In this document: piece after piece, positions 2,391 to 61,924 of the stretch
Layout of the letters: every line of letters starts with the position of its first letter
Numbering within the stretch: the first letter of the stretch is position 1
Source: Phorcus lineatus
Taxonomy: Eukaryota; Mollusca; Gastropoda; Trochida; Trochidae
Direction: 5' to 3'
DNA: 64,000 nucleotides
Assembly (NCBI GenBank): GCA_921293015.1
Contig: OV121098.1
Location: forward strand, 11,879,016 to 11,943,015
Notes under the pieces: generated by a model
Database searches by the model: none
Told to the model about the DNA's origin: nothing
The model's input: only the letters and a program-made list of their open reading frames with translations
Program-made: the position numbers and the translations under genes

Positions 2391-2564
2391 TCGTAGACTG
2401 CGGTACACCGTCAGACGTGGAATACGCTGACTCGACACATGTAGGAACCACGTACGGCAATACGGCCACGTACACCTGCCGTACCGGATACGTATTTACT
2501 GGAACAAGTCTTGATGTGACCTGTACAGAGACAGGATGGAGCAGCCTTGATGGCGTTTGTGATA
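2391..2564 (+). CDS. Exon: sushi/CCP module 1
   Basis: The exon runs from a TTGTTGTCAG acceptor to a GATA|GTGAGT donor, phase 1 at both ends. It encodes the four-Cys sushi pattern with CGTP after the first Cys and GWSSLDGVC at the end. No exon for this gene is recognisable to its left. Confidence 0.85.
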
Positions 2565-5500
2565 GTGAGTATTTTGAACTAAATCATACATTTTTTCGGT
2601 AATTAACGAGCGAAAGCGACACAATAAATGAGATTTAATCTCTAATGTAAAATAAGTCACTAATGGGCAGGACATCCGACTTGGGTCGAGTTGCTAAAAT
2701 TTTGACCACAATGACCTTGAAACGTCAACTTTAACCCCTGCAATAATACTAGAAGCCGTGTTATAAGTGAAATTAACTAGAAAGCCGCGTTAAACCCGAT
2801 ATCTCAACTCCTCTCAAACATTACATTTGATAAAATCGTCATCTTCTAAAGCTGTGTACAGTGGTATCGGTAGGTCGTAAGAATGCTGAATGCAATGGTA
2901 TTAGCATGGGGGATACTGATTTGGTTTCAATGATAACACCAACAGCTACTAATGTTTTCTTTGTCCCTACACAGGCCAAGAGAGATGAAATAAACCAGTT
3001 CCCCCTAAGTTGTTAAGATATATCTATTTATGTATTGAGGGCATAAAATTATAGACATTTTGAACGTTCAGGGTATCGGTACTCCTCTTAACAACACAGC
3101 TGTTATGAAGCATGTCCATTTCATTTAAACTCTTGCCCAAGAACTACAAATAAGCGTTGAAGATTGAAGGGGTAAATGAAAAACGTCCACAGGTTTTGTG
3201 TTCGAGTTTGGAACATGTGTTCTCCTTTAATGTACCTCTTAAAGTTGCTGTTGTTTATTTCAAGTTGTCAATTGCGGTACCCCTGCTGGACATACAAATG
3301 CGGAAGTGACGTATGAAGCTATGACGTATGCTGCAACAGCAAACTACTCGTGTATCCTTGGTTACGAGTTCGTCGGGGGAACCCAGACTTCAACTTGTAC
3401 TGAATGGGGTTCCTGGGACGCCATTGATGGCAGCTGTACTCGTAAGTGTTGGGTATTATCAATTAACTATCAGTTGTCTGTCACTAATACAGTATTTACG
3501 TCTAGGCCATATAATTCGACAACGGGCAAATGCAAAGGACTGGGCCAATACAGGAAAACTTGGCCACACTAGACAAACTGGGCCAATACGATTCTGAGCA
3601 TGCGCAGACAAACGAATGGAGAAAGAGCCAAGTTCTCGTTTTAAAAAACTTTCATAAGTTATATCGGTTCACAAATCTCAATGATATTGATTTTGACGAG
3701 ATTGAACTCTTTAAGGTGACTCAAAATAAAAAGGGGTTGATAAATTGAAAAATTAAGTATTTCCGTTTTTGCTGATTTCGCGCAAACACAACGGACCTCG
3801 GACCTGTAACTGGGTCAATACGTAAATACAAAGGTAATAACATTAAAGCTCTGTGCGAAAGATCGCCTTTTATTAATAACAGATGTAACCAGTTTTGTAC
3901 TATACACTACCGTTAAAGAGGAAGTTCCAAAAATGGTAACAATAGTATTAAGTGATGTTTTCTGTGTATCATTTTGGGCTAATTCTTGGTATATGTAGCA
4001 GTAAGTGTTGTTGAAACACTACCGTGCAGAAGAAATGTTCCTGTTTCTCTTTTACTATCTTCAAACGATTGTTTGAAACAGTCGAAAACCGTACCGCTAA
4101 GTACTATAAAGTAGAAAATTCCCCGTTTTCTCTCTTGGTCACTTCAGCTGTCATTGTAAATGGTACAATACTTCAACAATCTAAAGTAAGTACATGGTTT
4201 CCCGTAATTAACATTTGTCACCAGATTTGGACAGCCGCGGATAGTTCATATGCAGAACTTCAAGCGTTGTGCTTCAACCATCGAATATTGTGATTGTCAA
4301 AAATTCCGACTGACACAGAAACTACAAGTTAAGTGAACATGAACAACTTGCAAATGATCCATTTTGTGAATGGCCAATCTGTTTCACGATAAGACGAATA
4401 CGCTTGCGCTCCACTTACGTAACCTGGGATGAAACCTCAGAAAAAGCTACGCGCTGTGGCATATGATCCAGCCGATCAAACAGGTTCACGATAAAGTTTC
4501 TGTCAGCCACAGAGAGCCTTTTCAAACACAATCGGCCTTTGCTCTTCCGCAACATGATGTCGTCCTTAGATAAGGTAGATGAAATCAAATGATGTTCCGT
4601 TTTATCAAAGTAGGTGTGGTAGATTTTTAACACACTGTTTAACAATAATCCACCACAAAGAACACAATCAAAAATCTTAAAACATTGCAAACGCTGTCAC
4701 TGCTTGACTATTTAAAAATAGTTTATAGGTCATAGGTCACAGTGCGTAGCTTTGATAATGGTTATATCCCAGGGTACAAAAGTGGAACAGTGGTGTATAA
4801 TTTTTTTAATCTGAGACCGGATAATGAATGGGTGGCTTTATATTCATCATTTCTTCACTCTTTCTATAAATCGCCGCTGTAAGTGATGTTTGAAATTCTG
4901 TATATAGAGTCCATTTAACGCATAGCATCATACTTCTGTGAATAACCTTAACTAAACTTATGTTTCTGATTTCAGTTATAACATGTGACCCACCACCAGA
5001 ATTACCAAATGCGGAAGTGACGTATTCAAATACGTCGTACGGTTCCTTAGCAACGTATACTTGTCTTATTGGCTATAGGTTTGAAGGAGGCAACCCGAAC
5101 ACAACATGTACGGAGAGCGCGGCGTGGACCACCCTAAATGGAACTTGTACTTGTGAGTGTGGTCAATAAATCTATAGTTTGAAAAACAAGATTTAATTAA
5201 AGTGACTGCTGTTGGGACGTACTTAATCATATTCAAGTGTCTGATTGACAAACGATTGATATGCCTTTTCAATAACGCATAATTATTTTTTCATATAAAT
5301 TGTTCCCAGCTAAATTCATCGGTAAACGCTCACTATATTTTTTCGAAGATTCAGCACAAGAACTCTATTTGAAAAGCAAATCTAGGGAAGTTTTATTTAG
5401 CTGATTTTATTAGCTATAGCAACATTTCTGTAGTTTGTGAGTGCCAAGTATATATATATACCCAGACTTTTCCGAGATTCTGATAGTCTCAGGTTTAAAG

Positions 5501-7887
5501 TTATATACTCATTTTTGCAAAGCAACTACATTATACTCGTAAGACTTACCGAACAAAAATATGATCACTTACATCAATCTTTCATGTCGCTTTTGCAATG
5601 ATTTTTATGTTAATGCCCTTTTCAAAGTTTACGTGACGCTTCTTATCGGAGCCTGCCAATTCAGCTCGATTAAGGACAAATCAATTGCACCCCATTAGAG
5701 TCGCGTCGCGAGTGTGATATAGCGATAATCTACAAATGGCAATGCCGATACTTGTAACAAACGCGTCTCTCATTGAGATTATCGCCTAGTTGTGTATTTC
5801 CTTATTTGAAGAAGGTAGGCATGAGCTATTTTCATTGCATTTTGGGTTTTATTTTATCTGTTCTACTTGTCTAAGTCTTGTCGTAAGGACGATGGGGAGG
5901 GATAAGGTGTTTTGTATGTTAATATTGAAGGCAAGAATGAAAGCAAAGTTCTGACGGAGAGGTTGAAGTGAGTGATGAACTCCATGTCTGGCGTGCATTA
6001 AAATATTTGCAAAAGTGATCTAATGACTTTTATGACAATACTGTTAAGGGTTCCTCCCTTTAAACGTACTAGCCTTTTTGATGTTCATTATGATATGAGT
6101 TGGCTTCCTAGAGGATATCATCAACTTTAAATCAGTCCCATTGTGTATCTCCTCTATTGCAGTGATATCATGTGGAGAACCTCCTGATATCGTCAATGCA
6201 ACCGTGACGTATCAGAATATGACGTATGGTAGCCTAGCAACGTATTCATGCATTGAGGGTTATATGTTACTTGGTGGTACGACTGATGTAAATTGCACCG
6301 ACTCAGGGACGTGGGCCAATCAGAGTGGCGCCTGTTATCGTAAGTTTCGTAAATCTCATTAAAACCAAATGGAACCATAATTATTTCTGATCTGAGAATT
6401 GTTCCACCATGGTTATGTCAGGAGATGATTGCTTCAAGCCAATCAGCAACGAGGCAACAAAGTCTTTGGCACGATTTGATAATTCAGCAGGTGTCTGATT
6501 ATTTGATACTACAATTGATTGATATAGAAAATTTACAGACAGGTCAGTTGACCACTACGAGCAGTATTCAGATCAGAAAAGCAGCGAGATGAAAGAGGTA
6601 GATTTGTCGGAGTTGAATGAGATTTACAGTGCCGCTGTGCCTGGCTGTGACTGGTCAGGATTTTCTGTCACAGTCTTCACTGTTCGGATGTTATTTGAAA
6701 ACATGAAAATGTAAACGTTTACATTGTTCGATATATGTCTTTAAAAAATGCACTTAAATGTTATTTTCAAGCTTCGAATATAACATCATATAATTCCCAA
6801 AGTAATTTCAGCCACAATTGTTTTCCGTCCGACTCAAATCTAAAATCTTATTTCTGAATAATGTAAAACAAGTTATCATAAAAAATCTTGTGAACTAAAA
6901 GAACAGACATCCTCATCCCATAAAGGCAGCTCAAGTCAGACTAACCGCTGTTTGAACACGAGAACTCGGGCTTCCGAATATTCCCCACGCTGCAAGCAAA
7001 CTGCAAACTATTAACCAATGAAAATACTGCTGCTAAGGAACGCTTGCTTACTATCACCTGATTCAGTCTGCATGTCACGTGACCGTGTTCTGTTAAGAAG
7101 ATGCAAAGTGCTAAGTCAAATTTATCCTACTTAATCCGAAACACCCGCAAACGATTAAGTTTTTTTTGCAAGTCCGTAGCAACGAATTAAAATATGATTA
7201 TGAAAATAAAAAATAATTGGGGTGCTAACGTAAGATGTGAAGTTTTTTCTTGCAGATGTTTATATATTTTATCGAATATTTTTCCAGGATATATTGGATG
7301 TTACAAGGACAATCCGCAAAGGTTGTTTGACGACGGGAAACTAATCTCCGAGATGACTCTGATCTCTTGCATCGATTACTGTCAAAACTACACATTTGCA
7401 GGTGCACAGGTATGAAATAATCCTTTAACTCCCGTCCTTAGTTTATCAGGACTCAATGTCTCACTGATGTACATTCCCTACCTCTTGGACCCATATGGGA
7501 GGTTAAAATACGTTTTTGATATTTTTTAAGTGACCCAATCTGAATTAATTTAGATACAAAGTTTCTTTGGATATAAGGTCATACACAATAATCAAAGACG
7601 ATAATTTCCAGTGGAGGATCCAATTATAGATTCAAGTTAATAAAAATAATTTGAAATATGAATGGTTTTATAGTAAAACATATTATAACGTAACAATAGC
7701 CCCCATCCCCCCTTTTTTGACAATATCAGAATCACTGTTTCAGAACGGAGGAGAGTGCTATTGTGGGAACGAGCTAGACGAGACAAATTTCCCGAAAGTA
7801 TCAGAGACAGATTGCAGCTCCCCATGCTCGGGAGACTCGTCACAGATTTGTGGAGGAAGTTGGCGATCATCCGTGTTTAGACTCTGA
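2391..7887 (+). CDS. Sushi(CCP)x4-WSC domain protein, 3' part of gene
   Basis: Six exons join in phase: 2391-2564, 3265-3441, 4976-5152, 6163-6339, 7288-7409 and 7744-7887 (TGA). The first four are 58-59 codon, phase 1-1 exons, each one complete sushi/CCP module with four Cys (for example VDCGTP near the start, ATYTC, DVTC and GVC in module 1). The last two make one WSC domain, starting YIGCYKDNPQRLF and ending with SSPCSGDSSQICGGSW and SSVFRL before the stop. Sushi modules bind proteins or glycans; WSC domains bind carbohydrate. Several N-glycosylation sequons (NYS, NTS, NMT, NQS) fit an extracellular protein. No start codon, signal peptide or membrane anchor is seen, so the 5' exons must lie left of the window or unrecognised before 2391. 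Function is unknown; a secreted lectin or innate-immune role is inference. Confidence 0.85.
2732..2812 (+). mobile_element. SINE family 1 tail fragment
   Basis: The stretch CTGCAATAATACTAGAAGCC and the following GTTAAACC match the SINE 3' part. It lies between sushi exons 1 and 2. Confidence 0.6.
3265..3441 (+). CDS. Exon: sushi/CCP module 2
   Basis: The acceptor is TTTATTTCAAG and the donor C|GTAAGT, phase 1-1, 177 nt. It encodes VNCGTPAGHTNAEVTY through SWDAIDGSC, a full four-Cys sushi module. Confidence 0.85.
3442..4975. other. Intron between sushi exons 2 and 3
   Basis: It contains short repeated text (CTGGGCCAATACAGG / CTGGGCCAATACGATT, 3540-3595) and a minus-strand open stretch at 4415-4690 of no recognised family. 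No exon is supported. Confidence 0.5.
4976..5152 (+). CDS. Exon: sushi/CCP module 3
   Basis: The acceptor is CTGATTTCAG and the donor T|GTGAGT, phase 1-1, 177 nt. It starts ITCDPPPELPNAEVTYSNTS and closes with WTTLNGTC. It shares NAEVTY with module 2, suggesting the modules arose by exon duplication. Confidence 0.85.
6163..6339 (+). CDS. Exon: sushi/CCP module 4
   Basis: The acceptor is CTCTATTGCAG and the donor C|GTAAGT, phase 1-1, 177 nt. It starts ISCGEPPDIVNATVTYQNMT and ends WANQSGAC. It is the last sushi module before the WSC exons. Confidence 0.85.
7288..7409 (+). CDS. Exon: WSC domain, first half
   Basis: The acceptor is ATTTTTCCAG and the donor CAG|GTATGA, phase 1 in and phase 0 out, 122 nt. 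It encodes YIGCYKDNPQRLF, then SCIDYCQNYTFAGAQ, the N-terminal half of a WSC domain. Confidence 0.88.
7744..7887 (+). CDS. Exon: WSC domain, second half, and stop
   Basis: The acceptor is CACTGTTTCAG, phase 0. The exon encodes NGGECYCGN, then VSETDCSSPCSGDSSQICGG, and ends SSVFRL-stop. The spacing of the last Cys residues and CGGSW is typical of WSC domains. The protein stops immediately after the domain. Confidence 0.88.
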   Translation, partial: NGGECYCGNELDETNFPKVSETDCSSPCSGDSSQICGGSWRSSVFRL

Positions 7888-16254: not shown

Positions 16255-16540
16255 AAATAACCTGTGAACAAATCAAATGATCTTAATGCCCATCAAATGG
16301 CCTTGGAACCCATCTGATGACCTTGCATCCTGCAAATGACCTTGGTGCACGTCAAATAACCTAAGGGCACTTTGAATGTCTTTGGCGCCCGTCACCTCAA
16401 CTTGGTGCCTGTCACCTCAACTTGGTGCCTGTCACCTCAACTTGGTGCCTGTCACCTCAACTTGGCGCCCGTCATCTCAACTTGGCGCCCATCATCTCAA
16501 CTTGGCGCTAGTCATCTCAACTTGGCGCCAGTCAACATCA
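16255..16540. repeat. 20-23 bp tandem arrays
   Basis: 16386-16535 holds about eight copies of a 20-bp unit (GTCACCTCAACTTGGTGCCT and variants). The preceding 130 bp is a looser 23-bp repeat around AAATGACCTTG. It lies just beyond the 3' end of the receptor gene. Confidence 0.85.
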
Positions 16541-16831: not shown

Positions 16832-19800
16832 CTGTAACAATACATGCGTGGGTTGTGATTTAAAGGGGCACAGAGTATCTTGTTGGAGTCAAAAATGTCA
16901 AACTTCATTAATGGTGTTATTTCATAGAGAAATAGTGGTTGTTTCAGAAAATCAGAATCCTAAGGCTTATCAGTTCAGATTAGTTTCAATAGAGGGTTAA
17001 TGCCGTGATGGGTGTTTAAAAACTGCACAGTGGCGCCAATGATTCAAATGTAATTTCTTAAAATTATTCACGGCAGATACAAACAAGAATATTGGATGAC
17101 AGTGTTCAGTAGGTAATTTAAGTAATATACACACTAATTTGGCACATGTCTTCAAATTTTAACAAGAATGGGGCTGTTTTCCGATTATCAGTGAAAACAA
17201 GAAAAATCTTAATTTGGGCGTTTTAGAAATAAAGACGCAAGTTTAGGGAGGCGATTTTAACTTAATCTCAAGTTATCATGTATTTTTGCTCTTACAAATG
17301 CCAAATTAAAAATCATGAAATGTACTCTGTGTCACTTTAAGGTGTTTTCAACGCTATTTCAGTCATTCAACTCATGAATGCAAATCATCCCAAAAAGATT
17401 GGACAGATCAGAGAAAATGGGATCTAAAGTTTGACATTTGGTCTGGCTTGAATTGCTCCACCTGTCCCTACCAGAAGTGCATAGGCTCCAATTGGCATTA
17501 CTCTCGGGGATTAGGTGAGGTGATTTGGGGTTTAAAGTTGCTGGTAATATTGCAGGGAGTAAGCCCGCAACACTATTGTGATTTTACATTCCGTAAAAAA
17601 ACAGCGAGCCACAGCTGGAGGTAGCAAACCATGGGTGGTGTAAATTCAGTTTTAATTTGCAGCACACTCTTAAAGCATGCAAAAAAGTTCTCTACTGCAG
17701 GCAAGTTGTAGAGCCCTGGTAGCATTCGAACCCCAGTCCTTTCATCGAAAACTGAAAACTGTAACTACTCTGCTATCCGGCCCCAAAAAAGGCTCAATAT
17801 TTTATGAGTGCTTCAACCAGTGACAAGACTTGTTTCTTTTTACTATTTGAAATGGGGATTTTAGAAAACCAATAACCAGACCAATTTGATTACATTGAAA
17901 ATTTGATCATGCACTACAAAGGATGCAACAGTTTGATAAAAGTTACGCTTCCATATTGGATGGGTAATCAGGAGGGTTACACACAAAGTTACAAACTTCA
18001 GTCTACAGGTTATAAAGATTTTATTCTGGAAAGTTTAGCCTCCTATGCAAGGAAGAAAAATCAAATCAAGGTGGTGGACATCTTTGCCTCTAATCTAGAC
18101 TTGTAGTATTTGAAGGGGCATAGAGATTGTTGAATTGCAGGTCTTGCCCAATTTTTAGGAGGGCTATTTATTCTTCAAACCATGTAAGGCAAAAAATTTA
18201 TTTCTGAAGACCTTTTGTCTGTATATGATGAAAAGCATGAGATGACAAACCTGGATATGAGAGAACGAGAGCGTTGAGGATGCAGTACTCGGTGTGGTCA
18301 AGGTGAACTTCCTTGAGTCGGGAAGCAAATTCAAGAGTGGCGTTGATTAGTTCCTTGCCCCATCCCATGCTCTGAGCCATCTCGGATGATACCAGGAGAC
18401 CGTCCGCAAACCTGATTGTGTTGTCCAGTCCCATTGACCTGAATGAGCGACAAGAATCTTAATGTACTGGACCAAATAAGTTAGGGTTATTGTCAATTTT
18501 GATTAATATTTCATCAGGTGATCAAAGTAAATTATTTTTGTCTAGGATAAAAACATTGCTGCCGGATGCTGTCAGTAGAATATATCCAGCAATGTCATTT
18601 CCGTCACCAGTCTCATTAAAATACAAAGTGTTCAAAGAAATAAACGTTTCAAAATGTTGTCTCTTCAGAGATTAGAACTTGTTCCTTCAGTCTTACCACA
18701 GCCCCATTAGTCGCAGGTTCTGACGTAAACACACCCTTTTTAAACAACCACAAAAATTGAACCTCCCAAAATTGATATCCCCTTTTTCAATTGTTGTAGA
18801 TGCCCCTTAAAAATTCCTTGATTAGCAACTGATTAGAATTTCATAGAGGCAAGAGTTGGTGATGAACAGTCTCTGATACCTGTACGCTAACCGGAGGACA
18901 TTCAGTTCCATAAAAGAGGACTTCAGTAGGGCCATTTGGTCCTCCATACACAAGTCCCCAAAGCCTGAAAACAGAAAGATAAAAGAGGACTTCAGTAGGG
19001 CCATTTGGTCTTCCATACACAAGTCCCCAAAGCCTGAAAACAGAAAGATAAAAGAGGACTTCAGTAGGGCCATTTGGTCCTCCATACACAAGTCCCCAAA
19101 GCCTGAAAACAGAAAGATAAAAGAGGACTTCAGTAGGGCCACTTGGTCCTCCATACACAAGTCCCCAAAGCCTGAAAACAGAAAGATAAAAGAGGACTTC
19201 AGTAGGGCCATTTGGTCTTCCATACATAAGTCCCCAAAGCCTGAAAACAGAAACATGGACATTAATGATTACAGTATTTTTGGTGTACCAAATTTGATGT
19301 ATTGAGCTCCCCAAAGCCTGAAAACAGAAAGATAAAAGAGGACTTCAGTAGGGCCATTTGGTCTTCCATACACAAGTCCCCAAAGCCTGAAAACAGAAAC
19401 ATAAAAGAGGACTTCAGTAGGGCCATTTGGTCCTCCATACACAAGTCCCCAAAGCCTGAAAACAGAAAGATAAAAGAGGACTTCAGTAGGGCCATTTGGT
19501 CTTCCATACACAAGTTCCCAAAGCCTGAAAACAGAAAGATAAAAGAGGACTTCAGTAGGGCCATTTGGTCCTCCATACACAAGTCCCCAAAGCCTGAAAA
19601 CAGAAAGATAAAAGAGGACTTCAGTAGGGCCATTTGGTCCTCCATACACAAGTCCCCAAAGCCTGAAAACAGAAACATAAAAGAGGACTTCAGTAGGGCC
19701 ATTTGGTCTTCCATACATAAGTCCCCAAAGCCTGAAAACAGAAACGTGGACATTAATGATTACAGTATTTTTGGTGTACCAAATTTGATGTATTGAGCTC

Positions 19801-22800
19801 CCAAGCCTGAAAACAGAAAGATAAAAGAGGACTTCAGTAGGGCCATTTGGTCTTCCATACACAAGTCCCCAAAGCCTGAAAACAGAAACATAAAAGAGGA
19901 CTTCAGTAGGGCCATTTGGTCCTCCATACACAAGTCCCCAAAGCCTGAAAACAGAAACATAAAAGAGGACTTCAGTAGGGCCATTTGGTCTTCCATACAC
20001 AAGTCCCCAAAGCCTGAAAACAGAAAGATAAAAGAGGACTTCAGTAGGGCCATTTGGTCTTCCATACACAGGTCCCCAAAGCCTGAAAACAGAAAGATAA
20101 AAGAGGACTTCAGTAGGGCCATTTGGTCCTCCATACACAAGTCCCCAAAGCCTAAAAACAGAAACATAAAAGAGGACTTCAGTAGGGCCATTTGGTCCTC
20201 CATACATAAGTCCCCAAAGCCTGAAAACAGAAACATGGACATTAATGATTACAGTATTTTTGGTGTACCAAATTTGATGTATTGAGCTCCCTTTGCTCTT
20301 ATATCATTCAGAAGTGAGGGGCTTGCGAAAAAAATCAGTTGAACAAGGTGAGACGGTTCACTACTACAGTAGTTGAATGGCAGTATTTAAGTTCAATTCA
20401 GTGCACCGTACACTAACATGGATTTTTGGTTCATATCGCATATTTACTTTGTGTACAAAATATCATTTTAATAACTTAAAAACCAATAATATTTATTCAA
20501 TGTCAATGAATATTAAAGGCAATGATCAAATTTTTTATATTTATTATCATTAAATGTCTTCAAGTTTCGAAGAAACCTGTGGCCATTTTCCTGGAAGTAA
20601 ACATTCAGAATGATTTAGTTTGATCTTTAACTCTCAACAATAGTGTTTGAATGATGTGACTTTTGAGATCTCGTTCAAAGAAATATGGCGACTAATGGTT
20701 TCCTACCGAACCAAAAGTGTACTGTACCGGGTCCTGTACCGCAATAGGCACCAAACCGAAGCTCAAGCGTACCGTTTCACCCTTAGTTTCTAAGTTAACC
20801 TTCCACAAGCTGAAAGAGGCATGTGATACTAAGGGCTAATGCCAATGTTCAATGCACTTCTTGGTGATACAAACTTGTTTGTCTGATCTCAACTTATTCT
20901 ACATTTTACTGTCGATATTCAATATTCAATAACTCTCTCTTTTGTGCTTAACAAATTTACTGCAGACATTTTTATCCCAAAATATCTTGGGCCTCTAAAA
21001 TTATTTTTTTAATTCACTCCTCTGAAAGCATTCTCAACTACATATGACTTTATAGTCCTGCTACATGACTTTGTATATAAAGGAGCCTTTAATACAGTCT
21101 AGGTCCACATTCAGCAAGTCTAGATTCACTGAAAACAAATATGAAATTAGGAGCCCAAATAAAAAAATATCATGGATGAAGGAACATTAAATTATTAGAA
21201 TTTTTCATAGACTAAATTTTGATCTAATGACCTTACAGACATGGTCAGCTCAAGGAAAACTTGAAACAGAAATATAGTTTATACTTACCATGAACTTTCT
21301 TGGCCCATGCAATGATGTATTTGAGCTCAGTGTACCCACACTGCATCACTTCATTCACGCTTATGTTTGAAACCATCGTACCTAAAAAAAAAATGCTTTA
21401 TTTTTCATCCAGGGTATTTTCAAGTAACTTCCCAGTGATGAGCTAAATGCCAGTTCTAAGTGACATTCAAGTTTTGAAAGGCCCTCAGAATTCACTCGCA
21501 TCGTTTTTAGGTTTTTATATAAACCTTACAAAGCGCTTATGTGTCAAGGAGAAAATGATTACAAAATTATTTTTATCTTTCATCTTACCGAATGATTCAA
21601 ATTCTCAACATGATACATCAAACAGGTTAGGTGCCTCTCATCTCACATCTTAGCTTGCAGTTATGAGAAAACCCTAATTTCATCAATTTTTATGAACAAA
21701 TAGTCAATCAACTTTCACGTATCAAAAATGGAGAGAAAACAACCACCTTCATATTTGGGGAAAATGTCCGGCCCTGCTTTGACCAGGTTATCGATGATTG
21801 GGTCACGTAGCTCTGTCTGGGGTACTTGCTGAACTCCGACCATCCCACCTTCTGTCGTAATGATTGAGGTCTCGTCCACGCGCTGTCGTTTCATCCGATG
21901 CTTGCCGCCAGGAGCCCGGTCTTCACGAACAGCTTAGGGTAAAAATTTGCATTTATTATTAGAATATTTATATATTAGAATATTATATTTCCTTTGGGGG
22001 TTTATGGGGTGCTGAATAAATAACATCTTGGCCTTGATAAAACCTTTGTCGCTGAATCAATATAACCTTGCAATCCAATTCAGCCAGTAGTGTCATGTAA
22101 CTGCTGAATAACTATAACCAGCGTATAAACGTTATAAAACTGGACTTAGTACAAAGCACGGGGGATAAGGAGTTGAAATGAAAATGAAATAGAACATTAA
22201 CGAAGGAAAATTTGTTGATATAAATTGCAAGAATTATTTCATTTGGGATTGTTAAAGAGCAAAATATAAAAAGAATAAATTCCTAAATGAACATTGAAAT
22301 ATGTCAGGCAGATCTTTTGTTTGTCTGAGCGCAGTCAATTTTAACGAAGACTGTGTAGGTCTCTTGACGAAAATAGGTTTTTAGGGCTTCTCCCCTAAGG
22401 CCCTTATTTGGAGGGGCGGGATAGCACAGTGGCTTTCTATCAAGAGGTCCGTGGTTTGATTCCTGCCAGGGGCTCAGCAACTGTGTCTGCAGTAGAGAAC
22501 TGTTCTACACGCAGTCAGGTTTGGGTGCAATGCTACACCGAATATCACTGTAGTACCATCCTTTTTTCGTTAGTTCCAGCCAGTGCTCGCAGGTTTCACC
22601 GCAATGCATAGCCACAATGGTGTTGCAGGCTTTTTTCGTGCCATAATACTAGCAGCCGCGATATAAGTGAAATACTCTTGAATGCGGTGTTAAACCCAGA
22701 TCATCTCACCCCCCCACCCCTTATTTGGAGTCAAAGGGTCACCATTTCTATAAAAAAGAATCCCCGTCAGCTAAGGGGTCTCTATACAAAGTTTTAAGCT

Positions 22801-23877
22801 CTGTAGACCTCACTCTTGTAGAGACAAGATGAAAATAGGTTTAAAGGATGTTGTTGATGTGGCCCTTTTAACTGGTCACAGAGTCACCAAATCTATAAAT
22901 TAGAATCCTCATCAGCTTAGGAGTCTGTACACAAGGTTTCAGCTTTGTAGGTCTTTTGCTCCTGGGGAAAAATGGAAATTTTTTAGGGCGTAGCCCTTGT
23001 TGTCTTTATTCGGAGTCTAAAAGCAGCAGTGAAAAGGTTGCTAACAAAGTTTCAGATTTGTAGATTGCCTCTTGAGAAGAAGATGAAAATAGGTTTTTAT
23101 TTAGTGGTCCATGTGGCCAGTATTACTGGTTAGATGGACAGCTTATCTATGAATTAGAATCCCAATCAGCTAAGGAGTCTGTACAAAAAGTTTCAGCTTT
23201 CTAGGCCTCTTGCTTCTGAAGAAGAAGATGAAGGTTTTATCAACTCTTGTTAGAACTTTAAAAACCAGAAACACTTGGATAGCATAGCCACAATGGTGTT
23301 GCAGGTTTTATCAATAGGTTTTTACAACTATAAATACCAGAAACACTTGGGTGAGATTCTCTATTCATCAAAAAGTTACCTTCTCTCTTCATTCCCGTCT
23401 GGATACACTTGCTGAAGCGACAAGCCTGACAGCTGTTGCGTGTGAATTTGTTGATCTCACAACTGTTGCCTTCCTTACAGCAGTACATGAGATTCTTCTG
23501 TACCGTCCGTTTGAAGAATCCTTTGCACCCCTCGCACGAGAACACAGAATAGTGGTACCCTGATGCCCGGTCACCGCAAACTAAACACGCTGACGCATTA
23601 GCGGCCTGGAGACTGTCTATGTAATCACTCGATTGGTGGACTTCATTGCCAGCGATGGTTTCCACGACGACCTCCATAGGCTTGGAAACGTTTGATGTTG
23701 TTGTGCTCGTAGATGATTCTATGATATTTCCATGAAATTCCTGCAACCCTTGACTCTGCATGATAGAATCCTGGGTAAACGATTCACCTCCGTTTTCATC
23801 CTGCATGATAATGAGGATATTCCCGCTCCCACCACTCATGCTCGTAACAGCGCCTTGGCTTGCCATCGTGAGGTCGT
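16596..23877 (-). CDS. Nuclear receptor, DBD and LBD, 424 aa
   Basis: Six coding exons in gene order: 23380-23877 (ATG at 23866), 21747-21932, 21289-21381, 18880-18964, 18251-18438 and 16596-16831 (TAG). All phases match and sum to 1275 nt. DBD fingers use Cys 94, 97, 111, 114 and Cys 130, 136, 146, 149; the P-box is CEGCKG. After the DBD comes [16 protein letters not shown]. The LBD has the helix 3-5 signature ([15 protein letters not shown], then [17 protein letters not shown]), helix 10/11 [15 protein letters not shown], and AF-2 core LVLEMI at the C-terminus, so it should be a ligand- or coactivator-regulated transcription factor. The exact subfamily is not certain: the REDRxPGG box recalls NR6 (GCNF/HR4), the DBD also resembles NR4/ERR-type receptors, and the NR8 group reported in cnidarians and molluscs is a strong candidate. 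Exon 5 sits at the edge of a large tandem array of its own 5' part. Confidence 0.92.
16860..17340. mobile_element. MITE, TTAAAG-ended family, copy in receptor intron 6
   Basis: The ends are TTAAAGGGGCACAGAGTA and TACTCTGTGTCACTTTAA. It shares an interior (AGAGAAATAGTGGTTG) with the copy at 30024. One end lies 28 nt from the acceptor of receptor exon 7. Confidence 0.75.
17513..17785 (-). mobile_element. Diverged tRNA-headed SINE, family 1
   Basis: It has the GGTGAGGTGA tail complement, the AAACCATGGGTGG body and a decayed head ending CTGCTATCCGGCCCC. It lies in receptor intron 6. Confidence 0.7.
18251..18438 (-). CDS. Receptor exon 6: LBD helices 6-9
   Basis: The exon is 188 nt, acceptor CGCTCATTCAG, donor CCAG|GTTTGT. 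It encodes [20 protein letters not shown], then [20 protein letters not shown] and [11 protein letters not shown], the usual order for receptor helices 6-9. Confidence 0.9.
18880..18964 (-). CDS. Receptor exon 5 (minimal form): LBD helix 3-5 signature
   Basis: With the most downstream acceptor (start at 18964) the exon is 85 nt, phase 1 in and phase 2 out, with donor TACAG|GTATCA. It encodes [18 protein letters not shown] followed by [11 protein letters not shown], continuous with exons 4 and 6. Further AGs at 19033, 19102, 19171 and 19240 would lengthen it by 69 nt each, in frame. Which acceptor is used cannot be told from sequence. Confidence 0.85.
18911..20290 (-). repeat. 69-bp exon-edge tandem array, 17 full units in three blocks
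   Basis: Each 69-bp unit (minus strand) is 15 nt of intron end, TCTTTCTGTTTTCAG, plus the first 54 nt of receptor exon 5. The unit is exactly 23 codons, so the coding frame ([18 protein letters not shown] plus five linker residues) stays open through a block. Block 1 (5 units, 18911-19250) is contiguous with the functional exon; block 2 has 6 units (19317-19740) and block 3 has 6 units (19806-20230). Blocks are separated by a ~60-bp segment (about 19251-19312, 19741-19800, 20231-20290) that looks like the genuine upstream intron end. It holds an in-frame stop and TAATCATTAAT, a possible branch-point region. Counting partial units there are 19 acceptor-like AGs. Confidence 0.95.
20291..21288. 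other. Receptor intron 4
   Basis: AT-rich intron between exon 4 and the exon-edge array. No other exon or element was recognised. Confidence 0.55.
21289..21381 (-). CDS. Receptor exon 4: LBD helix 1-3 region
   Basis: The exon is 93 nt, phase 1-1, between a T-rich acceptor and a CATG|GTAAGT donor. It encodes [20 protein letters not shown], then IIAWAKKVH, which matches helix 3 of nuclear receptor LBDs. Confidence 0.9.
21747..21932 (-). CDS. Receptor exon 3: DBD C-terminal extension and hinge
   Basis: The exon is 186 nt, phase 1-1. It encodes [19 protein letters not shown], then a hinge through [17 protein letters not shown]. The basic KHRMKRQR stretch is a likely nuclear-localisation and DNA-contact segment. 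Confidence 0.9.
22380..23235 (+). repeat. Diverged relative of the 145-bp array
   Basis: Three to four degenerate units share AGAATCCYCATCAGCTWAGG-like, GAGTCTGTACACAAG-like and GAAGATGAAAATAGG blocks with 31018-32160. A SINE is inserted near its left end. It lies in receptor intron 2, ending about 145 bp from exon 2. Confidence 0.65.
22414..22717 (+). mobile_element. tRNA-headed SINE, family 1
   Basis: It is flanked by a perfect 13-bp target duplication (CCCTTATTTGGAG at 22401-22413 and 22718-22730). The head has lost the segment between the A-box and the anticodon arm. It inserted in a diverged tandem repeat upstream of receptor exon 3. Confidence 0.85.
23281..23308 (+). mobile_element. 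SINE family 1 scrap
   Basis: ATAGCCACAATGGTGTTGCAG is the conserved body motif. Nothing else of the element is recognisable. Confidence 0.45.
23380..23877 (-). CDS. Receptor exon 2: start codon, N-terminus and DBD
   Basis: The acceptor (TTGTTTTCCAG) leaves 11 nt before the ATG at 23866, so at least one upstream exon exists at higher coordinates. The frame before this ATG is open for those 11 nt, so an upstream in-frame start cannot be excluded. Residues 1-93 are Ser/Thr/Gln-rich; residues 94-149 hold both zinc fingers. The donor is AAG|GTAACT in phase 1. Confidence 0.92.
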
Positions 23878-25530: not shown

Positions 25531-25660
25531 CTTTTGAAGACAAATATTTTAAATCCTGCGTGCCATAATTAATTACCTACCATGAATAATCGCTGTGTGA
25601 GATTATAGAAACATAAATAAATCTTGTGAATAACTTCCGTTTTCCAAAAATTCAAGTATA

Positions 25661-27433
25661 TGGATCAGAAAAAAGCCTTTATTCAATACCTTGGAACTAT
25701 TTGCCCGTTTTTCAGGATTGAAAGTCAATGTAGATAAAACAAAACTTATGTGGATAGGCTCCAAAAAGAGATCTCGATATAAAATATGTAAAGAATGGAA
25801 TTTCAATTGGTCAAAAACAAATTTCACTCTTCTAGGAATAGAGTTCGATATCGATCTCGATAAAATGATCGAAATAAATTACGAAGAAAAGCTTTCTCAT
25901 ATCTACAGACAAATGAACATCTGGTCAGCACATACATTAACCCCCTATGGCAGAAATACGATACTTAAATCACTCCTACTACCAAAGCTTAACCATCTAT
26001 TCTCATCTTTGCCAAATCCCAAAAAAGGCGTCATTGAAAAACTCCAAAAAAAGTGTTTTAATTTCATATGGAAAAACAAACCAGATAAGATTAAAAGAGA
26101 TGTAATGATGTTAAACCCAGAACATGGGGGAATAAAATCTCCAAATATTTGGAAGATCATATCATCACAAAAATTAAAATGGATTAAAAGAATAAGAGAC
26201 AAAGACCTAAAATGGACATATTTATTTTACAATCAACTTAAAGAGAAGACCCCTTTTCTACTTTCGGATGGTATCTTTATAAAAAATAAAATAATTCCTT
26301 CTTTAACAAATTCTTTTTGGAAAGACATTCTCTCAGAATGGTCAAACTTTTTATTCATGAATAAAAGGAAAATTGTAAATGAAGAAGATATACAATGTCA
26401 ATCATTATGGAACAACGACAATATTATAATTGATAAACATCCGTTTTTGTATTATGATAGTATAAGAAAGGTGTTATTTTTGTAAATGATTTGATTCATG
26501 TCGAGGGAAGACTGTTAACTTATGAAGAATTTTCCAAATCTTTTTGTATCAAGACTAACTTTTTGACTTAAGAATCGGTGAAAAGAGCCATTATGACATA
26601 TGCCCGTTCACTGAACATTAAGCAATTTAAGAAAAAGCTACAAAATCCTATATATCTGTATAATGTATCAAAAATTGATACCATAATTGGGAGTAAAAAA
26701 TTATATGCGGCTCTTATTAACTCGAATTTTGTTCGGCTGGCAAGCTTTTCAAAATGGGAAAAAGTTTGACACAGTGATTTTGATGAAAAAGATTGGAAAG
26801 TTTTCAACATTATTGCTAATAAATGTTCGAAAAGCACAGACTTAAAATGGTTGCAATATAGAATTATTCATAATATTCTCCCAACAAGACAATTTCTTTA
26901 TAAAATAGGATATATATCATCACCACTTTGTCCGTTTTGCAAAAGTGAAATAGAAACCTTAAACCATATGCTTTGGGAATGTGAACCTATCCTCAGATTA
27001 TGGAAGGAAATAGAATTATGGTTAAACTCCGTTCAACTGAAATTAGAATTTACTAATAAAATTGTTATACTGGGAATGAACGGAAAGAACAATAATCCTG
27101 TAAATGTAATCATTTTACTAGTCAAAAAGTATATTCATAGATGTAGCATTAATGGTTACAAACCAAAGTTAGAACATCTTCAAGATGAAATTGTACGATA
27201 TTATGACCTATCTAGATATATTTTTCTGTCAACCGAAACTGAAGCAAAGTTTTTTCAATATTGGTCAAGTTTACACTTATTACTTGGAAAATAATGTTAT
27301 TTAGATTTCTTTTTAAAAAAAATGTAATAGCCAACTGTGGATTTCTTGTATCTTTATCTATTCGACGATTTTTTGTTTAAAAATATTACTTATTTTTGCC
27401 TGTAACACAAATATGGAAAATAAAAAAAAATTA
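25661..27433 (+). mobile_element. 5'-truncated L1/Tx1-like LINE
   Basis: The insert is flanked by a perfect 15-bp target duplication (AAAAATTCAAGTATA at 25646-25660 and 27434-27448) and ends in an A-rich tail. It holds the C-terminal part of a reverse transcriptase ORF: SGLKVNVDKTKLMWIG near 25710, then LTPYGRNTILKSLLLPKLNH, the post-palm region of L1-type enzymes. Near 26935 is a Cys/His knuckle, CPFCKSEIETLNHMLWEC, as at the C-terminus of L1/Tx1 ORF2. The catalytic palm and everything upstream are missing. Confidence 0.85.
25691..27294 (+). pseudogene. LINE ORF2 C-terminal relic, frameshifted
   Basis: The coding relic runs in three pieces: 25691-26485, about 26578-26769, and 26851-27294. 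A stop or frameshift separates each piece. It encodes the RT thumb/connection region and the terminal CCHC-type knuckle and has no active-site YxDD, so it cannot act on its own. Confidence 0.8.
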
Positions 27434-31017: not shown

Positions 31018-32160
31018 GCCCATTGCCCATTTGGGGTCAAGGGGTCACCGAACCTACAATTCAGAATCCCCATTGTCCAAGGAGTCTACACACAACTATT
31101 AAGCTATCAAGACCTTTTGGAACTGGAGAAGAAGATGAAAGTAGGATTTTAAGGTTTTGACCCCTCTGACCCCATTTGGGGTCAAGGGGTCACCGAACCT
31201 ACAATTCAGAATCCCCATTGTCCAAGGAGTCTACACACAACTATTAAGCTATCAAGACCTTTTGGAACTGGAGAAGATGAAAGTAGGATTTTAAGGTTTT
31301 GACCCCTGTGACCCTATTTGGGGTCAAGTGGTCACCAAACCTTCAATTTAGAATCCCCAGTGCCCAAGGAGTCTTCACACAATTTTTCAGCTCTCTAGAC
31401 CTTTTGGAACTAGGACAAAAGATGAAATTAGGTTTTTTAGGTTTTGACCCCTGTGACCCCATTTGGCGTCATGGGGTCACCAAACCTACAATTTAGAATC
31501 CCCGTTGGCCAAGGAGTCTACACACACCTTTTCAGCTCTCTAGACCTTTTGGAACTAGGGAAAAAGATTAAATTAGGTTTTTTAGGTATTGACCCCTGTG
31601 ACCCCATTTGGGGTCATGGGGTCAGCAAACCTACAATTTAGAATCCCCGTTGGCCAAGGAGTCTACACACACCTTTTCAGCTCTCTAGACCTTTTGGAAC
31701 TGGAGAAGAAGATGAATTAGGTTTTTCAGGTTTTGACCCCTGTGACCCCATTTGGGGTCATTGGGTCACCAAACCTACAATTTAGAATCTCCAGTGCCCA
31801 AGGAGTCTACACACAACTATTCAGCTCTCTGGACCTTTTGGAACTGGAGAAGAAGATGAAAATAGGTTTTTCATGTTTTGACCCCTGTGACCTCATTTGG
31901 GGTCATGGGGTCACAAAATCTACAATTTAGAATCTCCAGTGCCCAAGGAGTCTACACACAACTTTTCAGCTCTCTGGGCCTTTTGGAACTGGAGAAGAAG
32001 ATTAAAATAGATTTTTAAGGTTTTGACCCTTGTGACCCCATTTGGGGTCATGGGGTCACAAAATCTACAATTTAGAATCCCCATTTGGCAAGGAGTATGC
32101 ACATAAAATTTCAGCTCTCTAGAGTCATTGGTTCTGGAGAAGAAGTCGAAAAAGTGAAAA
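31018..32160 (+). repeat. 145-bp tandem array
   Basis: About 7-8 copies of a 143-147 bp unit, each with GACCCCATTTGGGGTCA, AATTTAGAATCCCC, AAGGAGTCTACACAC and GACCTTTTGGAACT. Copies differ by a few to many percent. The unit has transiently open frames (for example CDPIWGHGV) but these follow the period and are not a gene. Confidence 0.9.
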
Positions 32161-33085: not shown

Positions 33086-36000
33086 GTAAGTAAAACATTG
33101 TAGCTAATAAAATATTTATGCGTTTTGTTTATCCTTTGATGTTCACCTGTTCACACCTGTGGTGGTTATAAAATATTGCCCGGAGGGCACCAGTGATTTC
33201 GTAAGATAAAACAGTTTCAAGGAGAGTTGTTTTCGTAGGAGGATCCATATTGTAGAAGTTCTTTTCATAGAAGTGAAATTGTATTTATGTCAGTGTGGCA
33301 GGGTATATATTAGTCTATTCTATATACAGGTCCTTGTTAGTATATTACAGTGCCGTGCCATAATATAGTAGGCAAAATTCTGAACGTCATACTTTGTGTT
33401 ACACCACTAACAGGGACTGGGAAAGACACCTTTGACAATGGGCGATTTTGAGGGCATTCAGTCATTTTCAGAATTTTGAATGGGCCATTCCCCCTTGTAG
33501 CAATGGTAAAATATCCAATTGTAATGGGCCATTTTTTCGTCCTATGTGCAAAATGGCCCATGGCCCCTGCCTTTCCCAATCCCTGCACTAAGTGTTATTC
33601 TGCGCCGCGATTGGATAATATTCAATGTAGAGATATGAAATTTGGTTATCTCGACAATAACATAGTGAACTAACTGCAGACCCAACAAAGGAAGCCCTGC
33701 CTCAATGTGAAGCCCCTCTCACTTCGTCAATCAAAATGGCGCGAAGAGGACGTGATGTATCAGAGGAGCTAAAGCAGATGATGATTACAATGAATGAAGG
33801 CGGTTATAGTTCCAGGAAAATATCTGAAATTATTGGAATAAGTTTTCAATACTATTCAGAAAATTTTAAAATGTTATTCGAATAAGGAAAGACCGGGAAG
33901 GAAAAAAATCTTGGGCGAGAGGGGAGGGCGCGTTTTAGCACAGCTTGCCAAACAAAACAGATGCCGATCTTTGGCAGATTTGACAGTCAAATTTAATAAT
34001 TCTGTCCCTGAACCTTTGTAAAAAAGGACTGTCAGGCACAGATTACGATCTGTAGGATTTCATAGGTGCACAGTTGCCAAAAAAATCACCATCACTAAAT
34101 TAAACAAAATTCGCCGTGTTAAATGGTGCAAAGGTCTATTGATGAAAATTGGTCCAAAATAATTTTTAGTGATGAAATGAAAGTTGTATTGGGTCGTGAC
34201 AGAAAGGTTTATTTTTGGAGAAAGCCCGGTGAAAAATTCCGACCCAAGTGTTTGGGAATGATTAAAAACAAGTCCCCGCACAGCGGCATATCGGCAATGT
34301 TTTGGGGTTGCATAAGCTACCATAGTGTTGGTACCATAACATCTGTTGATGGAAATATAAACTCTGAAAAGTACATTAAAATCTTAGATGAACATTTATG
34401 GCCTGTGGTAACGAAAGAATTTCAAAATGAACCCTGGCTTTTCCAGGAAGACGATTGCCGTGTGCACACCTCTCGGGCGACCACGCTGTGGAAGTTGAAT
34501 AATCAAATAAATTTATTATAATGGCCTAGTCAGTCCCCAGATATCAATATCATAGAAAATATCTATGAAATAAAATAAATCTGGAAAAAAAGTTAGATGA
34601 CATCAAATCAAAAGCCGATCTCGTCCATGTTGTCAAGGAGATATGGTACACAATCAGTCCTGATGTTGTCAAGTCGCTGTATGCATCCCTCCCAAAACGG
34701 CTGTAATCAGTGATCAAGGCAAAGGGATGTATAACAAAATATTAACATTTGGTCTAACTTTCTTGACGTTCCGACAATTATTGGTTGAGCCATCGCCTTA
34801 AAACTAGGGAGGTTCCAAGTTGAGCTTACGACACATCGTTACGCCATGATCCACTTTTGCGTATTGTATTGTGGCCACGCATTGTAGTACGCAAAGAGTG
34901 TCATGACGTCATGAAATGGCGTTGGTCAAACGGATCAATTCGCTCATTAAAACGCCATATTTCAATAAATATTTACCCGAAAGAGTCAAAATTTTGGTTA
35001 TGTGTTTTTGATCTGCAATCTATATCTGTGATCACCTTTCGTTGCCATGAAAGGATAATCCTTTGATGACATGAAGACACAACTGAAATCAACTTTTTAT
35101 AATCTGTCATTTAATTTACTTTCCAAACTTATTTCGATAATTTGTCAGATATTGCCATTTATGTTGATATGTGAGGAAAAAATGTGCAATTCCAAATATT
35201 TTATTTACTCATTTTGTATTCTCTACGGACACCTGACAAGGTGCCAACATGGTTTTCTCTTGCTTAAAAAATCAAGGTTGATTGCCAATGACATGAATTT
35301 TCATCCAAGATGAAAAGATGTGCCTCAGACTTTGTATCGGTATATTGCAATACGGAAACAACACGATACATACCGGTACACTCTTCTGGATTTATCCAAT
35401 ATATCGCATGATATAAAATTAACAATTTCCTTTTAAAATTGCACAAAATATAACCAAAAAACGTGACTTTACTGGAAGTTGAAGTGTGAACTCTCCAAGT
35501 GAAAATAGCACAGACATGTTACAAGACCGAAACCAGTCACTGAATTATCTTTCTTTACTAAACGAGCCAGTTGAGCAATGCATGCTCACTGTTCTAATCG
35601 ATGTTATTTAGCCAAGAGAGTCTGGAAAAATAAGAATATGAAATGTACCAATATATTGCAATACGCCTCTCTATATTGCAATACATTGCGATACGGAAAT
35701 GAGTAGCGATACCCATCCTTACGCGCTATGTGGGAGATATTTTTATATTACCCATACGGGCAAGGAGACACAGGTGGATATTTTTTTTAATCTCTCGCTT
35801 GGTAGTCGCCTTATAAAATATATTATCACAACCCAAGACAATTATTTGTAATAGATACAACCAATTCTTACCTAATTTTGAGAAAATATACAATGTTTCG
35901 TTATTTCCACTAATTTCTAGACACATTTTCAAACATCTTTGAAGTTGTTAGAAAGATGCAGTTTTCTAAAAAGATCACTATCCGTTCCTTTTAAATTATC

Positions 36001-39000
36001 ATTTCTAAAACTGCAGCCTTGCGTGCCTGTTATTTTCCTTGTTGTGACTGAACTACAAAACAAAAACAATTGTCTACCCTAAATGTGATAATTAATATAT
36101 ATCAACATTTCTGGCACATTTTCAAGACTTGTCTTGCTTCATCAATAATTCTCTCTGTTGTAGCTATTATGACAGATTGGGAAATGTCGCTGCTTGAATT
36201 CCCTTAGAAAACCAATGGAAAGAGGAGTCGTCTCTTTACGATGCAAACTTACAAAACGCGACATGGAAATAGCTAATTGTCAAACGAAATGCCCAGAACG
36301 TTATGATTTCTGCATACTATATTATAGCCACGCACTGTAGTATACCTTAAAGCCCTAATATTCATTCATTCATATCATTCATATTGTTACATGTTAAATA
36401 TCCATTTGTCTTATGTTGTTCGCGTTTGCCGTTGCCGTTCTTAAGTCTTTGGAGTCTCCCTTCACTTCCAAGGATGTTCTGTAAAGATGGAGGTTTATTG
36501 ATGAAAGTTTTGGATTGATTTGTAACATTAACAATGCTTTCTTTTGTTACAACAAGAGAATAGATGTTCATATGCTATTATTTCAGACTGCGGTACGAGT
36601 ATCAATCTCCAGCCTTGATGCCTCTGTGAGGAAACCTGTCCTGGTTGTGGTCAGGGAACAGGAAGGGGTCATGTCCTGGGCAGTCCCTCTCTACATTGAC
36701 TACATGTAAGTTAAGCAGTTTACTCCAGAAGTTACTGTGTAATACCGTTTCTATTTTTTTTGCCATTATCATTGTTGAGGGAACAGGAAGGGGTCATGTC
36801 CTGGGCAGTCCCTCTCTACATTGACTACATGTAAGTTAAGCAGTTTACTCCAGAAGTTACTGTGTAATACCGTTTCTATTTTTTTGCCATTATCATTGTT
36901 GAGGGAACAGGAAGGGGTCATGTCCTGGGCAGTCCCTCTCTACATTGACTACATGTAAGTTACACAGTTTACTCCAGGAGTTACTGTGTAATACCGTTTC
37001 ACTTTTTTTTTTGCCGTTACATTTGTTGAGGGAACAGGAAGGGGTCATGTCCTGGGCAGTCCCTCTCTACATTGACTACATGTAAGTTAAGCAGTTTACT
37101 CCAGAAGTTACTGTATAATACTGTTTTTACTTTTTCTTTTGCCATTACAATTTTTGAGGGAACAGGAAGGGGTCATGTCCTGGGCAGTCCCTCTCTACAT
37201 AGACTACATGTAAGTTACACAGTTTACTCCAGAAGTTACTGTGTAATGCCGTTTCACATTCATTTTTGCCAATACAGGTATTATACATTGCTTTGAAATA
37301 TAAGAGGTAAGAGAGCAAGTGTATAAGAGAGTTATATTATAGATTCACAATGGATAAGTCAAGAAAGTTAACAGTTCAGGAATGATTATATTTTGTGTAA
37401 TATTACTTTTGGGGACATGTCACAATTTCATGTTTTGGTGACATTTCAGTGAATTTTTGTATGTAATTCATAGGTCTTCAACTTGATTAATTTATAAACT
37501 TAATCAATAGATCATGACATGCTTATGAGCAACAGGGTCAAATGTTTTTTTTTTACAGTTATGCCTACCACGAGGTTAGCCGAACGCTTTGTCCAGCCCA
37601 GTATGCACTGACTGATAGGGAGGAGACAGGGGAAAGCATAATCTATGTGGAAGTGTCTTCAATGGACACCAAACCAGTGCAGTTCTCATTTATGGCAGAA
37701 CTGTTGACCAACTTCGACCTACAGTACGTATAATGATTATATCCTTGTTTGTGAAAACAATTTGTGAGATAAAAAACAATCAAGCTGTCTCATAAGGGGG
37801 TAAAATTTAAACATTTAACTTCAAAACTCTGATCCTTTTTTTATGATAGGATGTGAAGCACTTCCTTGAATATCAAAATGGAACTCTTTTGTATTTCAGA
37901 CACAGTAAGTTAAAGAATGCGTCCGTCTCCCCATCAAAGCCTCAATACTTCAAGTACACGTTCCCAGATGACGTATATTCGGTTCTCATCAAGGTCAAAT
38001 CCGACTCCAGCACGTGTATGGTTGTCTCCATACAGGATATTCAGGTTTGATGGCATTGTGTCATTTAGCATATTTTAGTGTAATTAAGATATGATTGTGA
38101 TATGATTACAAATCCAGAAAGGGGCGGGATAGTGCAGTGGTTAGCGCGTTCGGCTTTGGATCAAGAGGTCTGTGGTTCAAATCCTGCCAGGGGCTCGGCA
38201 ACTTTATCTGCAGTAGAGAACCGACAGTTCTACATGCAGTCAGGTTTAGGTGCAATGTTACACTGAGTTTCAGCGCAGTACCACTCATTGTTTGTTAGTT
38301 CCAGCATTTGCTCGCAGGTTTCACCGCAATGCATAGCCACAATGGTGTTGCGGGCTGCAATAATACGAGCCCCCGCGATATAGAGGAAATACTCTTGAAA
38401 GCGGCGTTTAACCCCATTTCACCTTCACCTCACAAATCAAGAAATTGTCAAGGAGGGGGGAAGGTTTGTTTTCCTAAGATCCCTTTATTGACCTAAGAAA
38501 ACCTTGCTACTGCCCCTTTTAAGGCCTTTTTTTTTTTATAAGTTGGTTTACGGATCCGCCGACCGTAAAAAGCTGAGATACTGAAAATAAATAAAATTCC
38601 CATAAGAGCATTTTTTTATTACCGTCGAGTGAAAACAGAAGAAATGTCAATAAAATAATAATCAGTGAAATAGATATGCTTCCCAAATGTCTTGCCTGTG
38701 AACCAACGGAGCCCGTTCTAAAAATAAACCACATCGACAATGCTCCACAGCAGTGCGTGACCTGTTTAAGACAATAACGGCTTCGCTGTAAGGAGCTGCC
38801 TTTGCTTAATACTCGACAGCAGTGTGTGGCATTTATCTCAATGTTTATAATACCGCAGAATCCACTGTAAGGAGCTATGCGATCTACTTCCGGTTTTCAA
38901 ACATGTGTTCGCCGGCTGGCGAAAGTTTTTCTTACTTCCAAGTAACATTAAAACCTCCTGGAAAGTTTTGGGTCAACTATTTAGGATATTGCAATATTTT

Positions 39001-61743: not shown

Positions 61744-61924
61744 TGTTTGTTACTATTTCCTTGGTGTAATTAGTGTTCGAGTTAATTTTGTTCTGCCTCA
61801 ACTGTATAGGACTGCTACATCAGCATATTTGAATCTGCAGAGCTCCTTCAATACCTTGATATCTGGCACGCCTAGTATCACTGACAGCTGGTTGTTCATT
61901 GCTATAGTTTGTTATTTTTAACCC

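Follow-up and report, generated by a model that had tools for sequence, protein, structure and literature searches.

On the minus strand of a 64,000-nucleotide stretch of the gastropod Phorcus lineatus (contig OV121098.1, positions 11,879,016 to 11,943,015; this whole stretch is the window, and its own numbering is used below) lies a nuclear receptor gene whose intron 4/exon 5 junction is spanned by a tandem array of 69-bp units. By splice-site reading and translation the gene has six coding exons, numbered 2 to 7 after a first-pass annotation of the sequence, and its product is 424 amino acids (aa) long. Since there is an acceptor in front of the start codon, we assume a further, non-coding exon upstream, whose position was not found. 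In Pfam searches the product matched PF00105 (C4 zinc finger, E 1.6e-29) and PF00104 (hormone-receptor ligand-binding domain, LBD, E 5.5e-30), and with both a DNA-binding domain (DBD) and an LBD in one predicted protein the receptor belongs to the nuclear receptor superfamily.

Among the best 60 of 753 matches to PDB chains, the top two overall were RXR chains, which aligned across DBD plus LBD and outscored 7q71 over the whole protein, while the best LBD-only chain was 7q71 itself, from B. lanceolatum NR7 (199 bits, E 1.1e-57), followed by ERR-gamma (118 bits). According to PMC9535869, 7q71 is the crystal structure of amphioxus NR7 ('Nuclear hormone receptor 7'). The predicted LBD is thus closest to known NR7, and we class the protein as an NR7-type receptor by this LBD match. 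A search of the genome with the LBD returned 52 matches at E up to 10 (search counts here and below are lower bounds), with 70 to 98% identity only at the receptor locus and 21 to 38% elsewhere, bar one short match at 53%; it found neither a second NR7 gene nor an array-free copy, and the gene is apparently single-copy. Just past the receptor stop codon, probably in the 3' untranslated region or just downstream, lies a minisatellite of its own, with 7.7 copies of a 20-bp unit (16382-16534).

Tandem Repeats Finder placed the junction array at 18910-20233 (period 69, 19.0 copies, score 2016), and with tandem units of tens of bases it is a minisatellite. A direct scan found 19 acceptor AGs of the form TTTCTGTTTT[C/T]AG followed by G, arranged in three blocks, with exon starts at 20220, 20151, 20082, 20013, 19944, 19875 and 19806 in block 3, at 19731, 19662, 19593, 19524, 19455, 19386 and 19317 in block 2, and at 19240, 19171, 19102, 19033 and 18964 in block 1. 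The spacing is 69 bp in 16 of the 18 steps; the other two, of 75 and 77 bp, are the block joins. Of these AGs, 17 are followed by a full 54-nt exon start and the remaining two, 19806 and 19317, which close blocks 3 and 2, by a truncated one. The consensus unit consists of TCTTTCTGTTTTCAG plus 54 nt, and its 69 nt, or 23 codons, are open in the receptor frame; the first 54 nt of canonical exon 5 are the last copy of the array. The first-pass annotation had described 69-bp units carrying the first 54 nt of exon 5 at a period of 23 codons, which repeat finder, scan and consensus bore out, and its five block-1 exon starts (18964 to 19240) and its exon 4 end at 21289 recurred in our scan and gene reading. 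Its 17-fold amplification is right for the full exon-start copies, whereas the acceptors number 19.

The composition of the units points to how they were joined. Exon sequence CTTTTATGGAACTG and intron-tail sequence CCATGTTTCTG meet in the junction CTTTTATGTTTCTG, with ATG common to both; five of the 16 internal junctions retain ATG and 11 have ATC, a G-to-C change that adds a pyrimidine to the tract. Across the 17 exon copies there are five variable sites, all of them transitions, three silent and two changing an amino acid, and both of the latter are singletons (D to N in copy 19524, M to V in copy 19171). When the genome was searched with one unit, a single candidate place, this locus, was found, with 18 matches, and no inverted repeat pair of at least 14 bases was found in the rest of intron 4 (20291-21288).

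The array also has a higher-order structure. The native intron tail (GGGAGCTCAATACATC...) is copied at the head of each block (starts 20291, 19802 and 19311), and the blocks represent a unit of about 490 bp, 98 to 99% alike: blocks 3 and 2 align with 482 identities, 7 mismatches and 2 gap positions, blocks 1 and 2 with 397 identities and 4 mismatches, and blocks 1 and 3 with 394 identities and 7 mismatches. The first copy of all three blocks carries TTA, and the other 14 copies TTG (13) or CTG (1). The case for block duplication is made by the copied linkers and block heads; the register of units 2 to 6 between blocks 3 and 2 (five differences in register, with 8 of 120 permutations equal or better) is only suggestive as a mark of it. 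The 69-bp array probably came first, and a stretch of about 490 bp that included the intron tail would then have been copied. Exons and blocks are listed in Table 1.

Table 1 Coding exons of the receptor gene and blocks of the 69-bp array (slashes in donor sequences mark the exon end)
Feature	Position	Strand	Basis
Exon 2, NR7-type receptor (start codon, DNA-binding domain)	23380..23877	-	Splice-site reading and translation; zf-C4 domain
Exon 3 (hinge, LBD start)	21747..21932	-	Splice-site reading and translation; alignment to PDB chains
Exon 4 (LBD, helix H3), donor ATG/GTAAGT	21289..21381	-	Splice-site reading; donor matrix
Exon 5 as in canonical receptor, 85 nt, donor CAG/GTATCA	18880..18964	-	Splice-site reading; isoform table; matrix
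Exon 6	18251..18438	-	Splice-site reading; LBD search of genome
Exon 7, with stop codon	16596..16831	-	Splice-site reading; LBD search of genome
Block 3, 489 bp: intron-tail linker, 6 full and 1 truncated copy; acceptors 20220-19806, 7/7 predicted premature stop	19803..20291	-	Scan, isoform table, block alignment
Block 2, 491 bp: linker, 6 full and 1 truncated copy; acceptors 19731-19317, 7/7 predicted premature stop	19312..19802	-	Scan, isoform table, block alignment
Block 1, 401 bp to 18911: linker and 5 full copies; acceptors 5/5 in frame	18911..19311	-	Scan, isoform table, block alignment

All 19 AGs have a branch-point-like motif and a pyrimidine tract in front of them. Each of the 16 internal AGs is preceded by TACTGAA (6/7 to YNYTRAY, branch A at -28) and by 17 to 18 pyrimidines in the 20 positions from -24 to -5, with 25 nt from the previous AG to the exon, and the three block-head AGs are preceded by the native CATTAAT at -22 (7/7) and by 14 of 20 pyrimidines; the other five exons have 10 to 14 of 20. 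Further 6/7 motifs are CTTTTAT at -16 of the internal AGs and CTGTAAT at -29 of the block heads, and the last AG has its nearest native branch-point motif about 300 nt upstream. The heptamer and tract of the internal AGs sit in the ALLKSSF codons of the preceding copy, and because the coding sequence CCCTACTGAAGTCCTCTTTT of one copy thus supplies both elements for the next AG, each 69-bp unit carries a complete 3' splice-site module. The presence of these motifs is a matter of sequence; their use is our inference. Since AGs about 12 to 15 nt or nearer to a branch point can be bypassed, as described in PMC1431707, the AG directly after the candidate branch A should be bypassed.

Splice sites were scored with rough matrices of general animal frequencies, without training on this species. 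Internal array acceptors scored 13.7 to 16.4, block heads 10.3 to 11.0 and the acceptors of the gene's other five exons 0.1 to 10.1, so that all 19 array acceptors scored above the latter, and the 16 internal AGs were the top 16 among the 404 AGs of the gene span. The exon 5 donor, at 4.6, was the weakest of the five donors (others 5.0 to 10.6). A cryptic donor within exon 5, CCG/GTTAGC at 18891, scored 4.1, near the real one.

Predicted products were computed by joining exon 4 (21289) to each of the 19 AGs and then reading exons 5 to 7. The five block-1 acceptors gave in-frame products with the normal C-terminus, of 424 (18964), 447 (19033), 470 (19102), 493 (19171) and 516 aa (19240). The other 14, reading through to the exon 5 donor, ran into a stop within the copied intron tail at 270 to 411 aa. 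The first-pass annotation had proposed that each upstream AG extends the exon in frame by 23 residues, which is true of the block-1 acceptors and fails for the remaining 14, and an in-frame ladder is therefore possible on paper only within block 1. Its receptors with zero to four extra copies follow from the frame arithmetic (424 to 516 aa), but their use to tune the LBD was unsupported. Neither the frame nor the silent/replacement count shows selection for extra copies: a period divisible by three has a prior of one in three, and we rejected the open frame as a sign of coding use, since the consensus unit is open in three of its six frames and any given frame stays open in 33.7% of shuffled units.

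The 424-aa form, the sole form aligned, matches 7q71 without a gap across the exon 4/5 boundary. Amphioxus R218 (the charge clamp of helix 3, H3) and D241 (the H4-H5 kink), numbered as in PMC9535869, correspond to the first K of WAKKVHG and the E of SFMEL, with both charges kept, by counting along the alignment (23 residues, from the R of WARK to the D of FMD). From this alignment and general LBD anatomy, the copied segment would run from the H3-H4 loop through H4 into the start of H5, which trims the helix 3-4 signature of the first-pass annotation by helix 3. Extra residues would start in the H3-H4 loop, four positions past the charge-clamp residue, and should harm the fold.

Taken together, the array is probably a minisatellite that was born across the intron 4/exon 5 junction and has been tolerated because exon 4 can still be spliced, at the last AG, to an intact exon 5, which would give a normal receptor. 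That the array is tolerated with only the last AG used had been the alternative of the first-pass annotation; we adopt it as the likeliest explanation and add to it that every unit has a branch-point-like motif and pyrimidine tract of its own. We propose that a tandem duplication joined the exon 5 sequence ...TTTTATG to the intron tail ATGTTTCTG at a 3-bp overlap, ATG, after which the 69-bp array grew and the stretch of about 490 bp with the native intron tail was copied. The spliceosome could then enter at many array AGs, with productive receptor mRNA coming mainly from 18964, beside the exon 5 donor, and encoding the conserved 424-aa protein, whose gap-free alignment to amphioxus NR7 at this boundary speaks for the proposal. 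Use of the other four block-1 acceptors would lengthen the stretch between H3 and H4 by 23, 46, 69 or 92 residues, the products of all acceptors other than 18964 would most likely be minor or decayed, and the array itself would be nearly neutral.

The sequence background is consistent with such an origin. In 200,000 sampled bases (twenty 10-kb stretches from five contigs, which we set at round coordinates) there were five arrays with a period of at least 15 and at least four copies, covering 3193 bases or 1.6%, and the same filter found five arrays in the window; two more (31026 and 36653) fail it because their best-scoring period has fewer than four copies. An animal genome has many tens of thousands of acceptors. 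With arrays this common and acceptors this many, some overlaps between the two are to be expected.

Several points weigh against a tolerated array read mainly from its last AG. The choice of acceptor is deduced from DNA sequence. The matrices use general animal frequencies, and in them three AGs outside the array (12.5, 11.9 and 11.2) beat the block heads. At one of its seven positions the candidate branch point departs from YNYTRAY, and there are other 6/7 motifs close by. Furthermore, 18964, 19033, 19102 and 19171 are identical across the scored 21 nt, so that strength alone gives the last site no edge; transcription order favours upstream acceptors; and some use of the three sites identical to 18964 is likely. 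Finally, since the exon 5 donor is the weakest of the gene, exon definition may be weak.

The array might act as a regulator of dosage, a row of decoy acceptors in which the 14 upstream AGs give decaying stop messages and the number of copies determines how much of the NR7 mRNA is productive, and although we consider this unlikely, it is the likeliest of the alternatives: 14 of the 19 acceptors would give a premature stop in the copied intron tail and the internal acceptors score high, but the exons these 14 need would be 438 to 1341 nt long, which is unfavourable under exon definition. A human precedent exists in the variable number of tandem repeats (VNTR) of ABCA7, for which retention of one unit, exon 19 skipping and lower expression with longer arrays are described in PMC5954066. 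If in-frame block-1 forms were made alongside such decay, amplification of a self-contained 69-bp module composed mostly of receptor coding sequence would let this one gene give a graded ladder of NR7 receptors with zero to four extra H4 segments plus a decayed fraction from the other 14 acceptors, and array length would be a heritable dial on the form and amount of the receptor, a combination we regard as improbable.

A tunable LBD, in which the four extra block-1 acceptors give receptors with one to four additional 23-residue copies between H3 and H4, is more doubtful again. The five in-frame products of 424 to 516 aa allow it, although frame openness and period are weak evidence, and the inserted forms would keep the DBD with a broken coactivator groove, becoming repressive or altered isoforms. 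In amphioxus, NR7 is a constitutive activator and forms dimers with RXR on DNA (PMC9535869), so that a form lacking activation could compete with it. The derived ATC stands in all four internal block-1 acceptors versus 7 of 12 in blocks 2 and 3, but this difference is not significant (Fisher P 0.24), selection for a stronger ATC junction in block 1 is not shown by it, and 19240, the remaining acceptor of block 1, sits in the weaker native context. Likewise, silent changes account for three of the five variable exon sites and each of the two amino-acid changes occurs in a single copy, yet with an expected silent share of 19/53 among transitions and 33/159 among all changes the silent ones are not clearly in excess (binomial P 0.25 and 0.06, respectively), one block-1 copy carries an M to V change, and the insertion would fall in a highly conserved part of the LBD.

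We find it still harder to credit that 19240, the first AG of block 1, is the main site, reached by scanning from the native CATTAAT, with the normal receptor holding four extra copies. That heptamer matches at 7/7 positions 22 nt ahead of 19240, and a search for the first AG downstream of the branch point has been described (PMC1431707), but the block heads are the weakest acceptors of the array (10.3 to 11.0 versus 13.7 to 16.4), 92 residues would be inserted where the 424-aa form aligns gap-free to 7q71, and the copies of this native motif that precede blocks 3 and 2 lead into stops. An error of assembly, in the copy number or in the array itself, has the smallest probability of these: tandem arrays are hard to assemble and a single assembly stands behind this one, but that assembly is contiguous (958 Mb in 74 contigs), the copies differ by point changes at five exon sites and at the junction, and the two-level order, with distinct block joins (75 and 77 bp) and three blocks 98 to 99% alike, is unlike plain repetition of a unit. 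Intron creation within the array was rejected as the main explanation, since all 19 AGs are followed by GC and the cryptic donors of the array are weak (TGTGTATGG, 1.3, 14 times; TATGTATGG, 3.6, three times, at the block heads) against 4.6 to 10.6 for real donors.

What is new here is that, in a conserved receptor, acceptors with full modules form an array that keeps the frame in its last block and has a higher-order structure; our literature search found no 3' splice-site minisatellite in a receptor, which is no proof that none is in print. At NAGNAG acceptors the AGs stand a few bases apart and have one common branch point, whereas in the array 69 bp separate one AG from the next and every AG has a module of its own. 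What the array shares with such tandem acceptors, which are named in PMC2891723, is competing 3' AGs that keep the frame. The ABCA7 VNTR in human intron 18 (PMC5954066), which starts with the exon 18 donor GT and for which retention of one unit was seen in RNA, is likewise a minisatellite that starts at an exon boundary with a splice site in its unit, but that unit is described as a frame-breaking 25 bp with a donor, in contrast to the 69 bp found here, which keep the frame, combine a 3' site module with 54 nt of coding sequence and have a higher-order structure. Human genes in segmental duplications have been described with variable internal tandem repeats at exon-intron boundaries, PRDM7 being among the earlier cases (PMC2812944); there too minisatellite expansion alters boundaries and splicing with in-frame and out-of-frame outcomes, but the genes are recent primate paralogs with on average four 30-bp units, as reported in that paper, while we describe 19 acceptors in an apparently single-copy receptor gene. 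Finally, tandem duplication of AG/GY proto-splice sites was proposed as a source of introns in Drosophila (PMC2891723). As in that proposal, exon sequence and a splice signal were tandemly duplicated and copied exon sequence now lies within an intron; unlike it, an existing 3' site was multiplied and no intron was created, and because GC, not GY, follows each array AG, no donor is made at the unit junction.

The window holds several other features. A 145-bp array at 31026-32145 (7.8 copies) has a unit that by eye resembles single pieces scattered in receptor intron 2 (22700-23300), and further arrays lie at 36653-37271 (124-127-bp units, 4.8-4.9 copies), at 50196-50440 (45 bp, 5.5 copies, 96% matches, the minus strand open as a 15-residue repeat) and at 59943-61427 (19 bp, 77.8 copies; very strong GC skew, -0.646 in 60001-62000). 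Plus-strand open frames at 2342-7887 show sushi/CCP-like modules and a WSC-like module, judged by eye from known motifs, and are perhaps exons of one neighbouring gene; judged in the same manner, plus-strand frames within 25634-27294 and at 34123-34521 comprise two with a likeness to the final part of a LINE reverse transcriptase and a third with a likeness to a piece of a Tc1/mariner transposase. In the mitochondrial cox1 on contig C74 there are 13 in-frame TGA codons, and at motifs regarded as conserved AAA stands for K and ATA for M, which argues against the echinoderm code; a tRNA search at that cox1 locus found none.

How splicing chooses among autonomous acceptors that are nearly identical is usually studied with constructed minigenes. 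A natural gene with five in-frame and 14 frame-breaking acceptors would allow nearness to the donor, transcription order and the first-AG rule to be separated, and the locus illustrates how tandem duplication can turn coding sequence into a branch-point-like motif and pyrimidine tract. The array falls in a conserved part of the LBD of a receptor subfamily that is discussed in PMC9535869 as a link in the evolution of heterodimerisation, and if its length differs among individuals, P. lineatus would offer a natural dose series.

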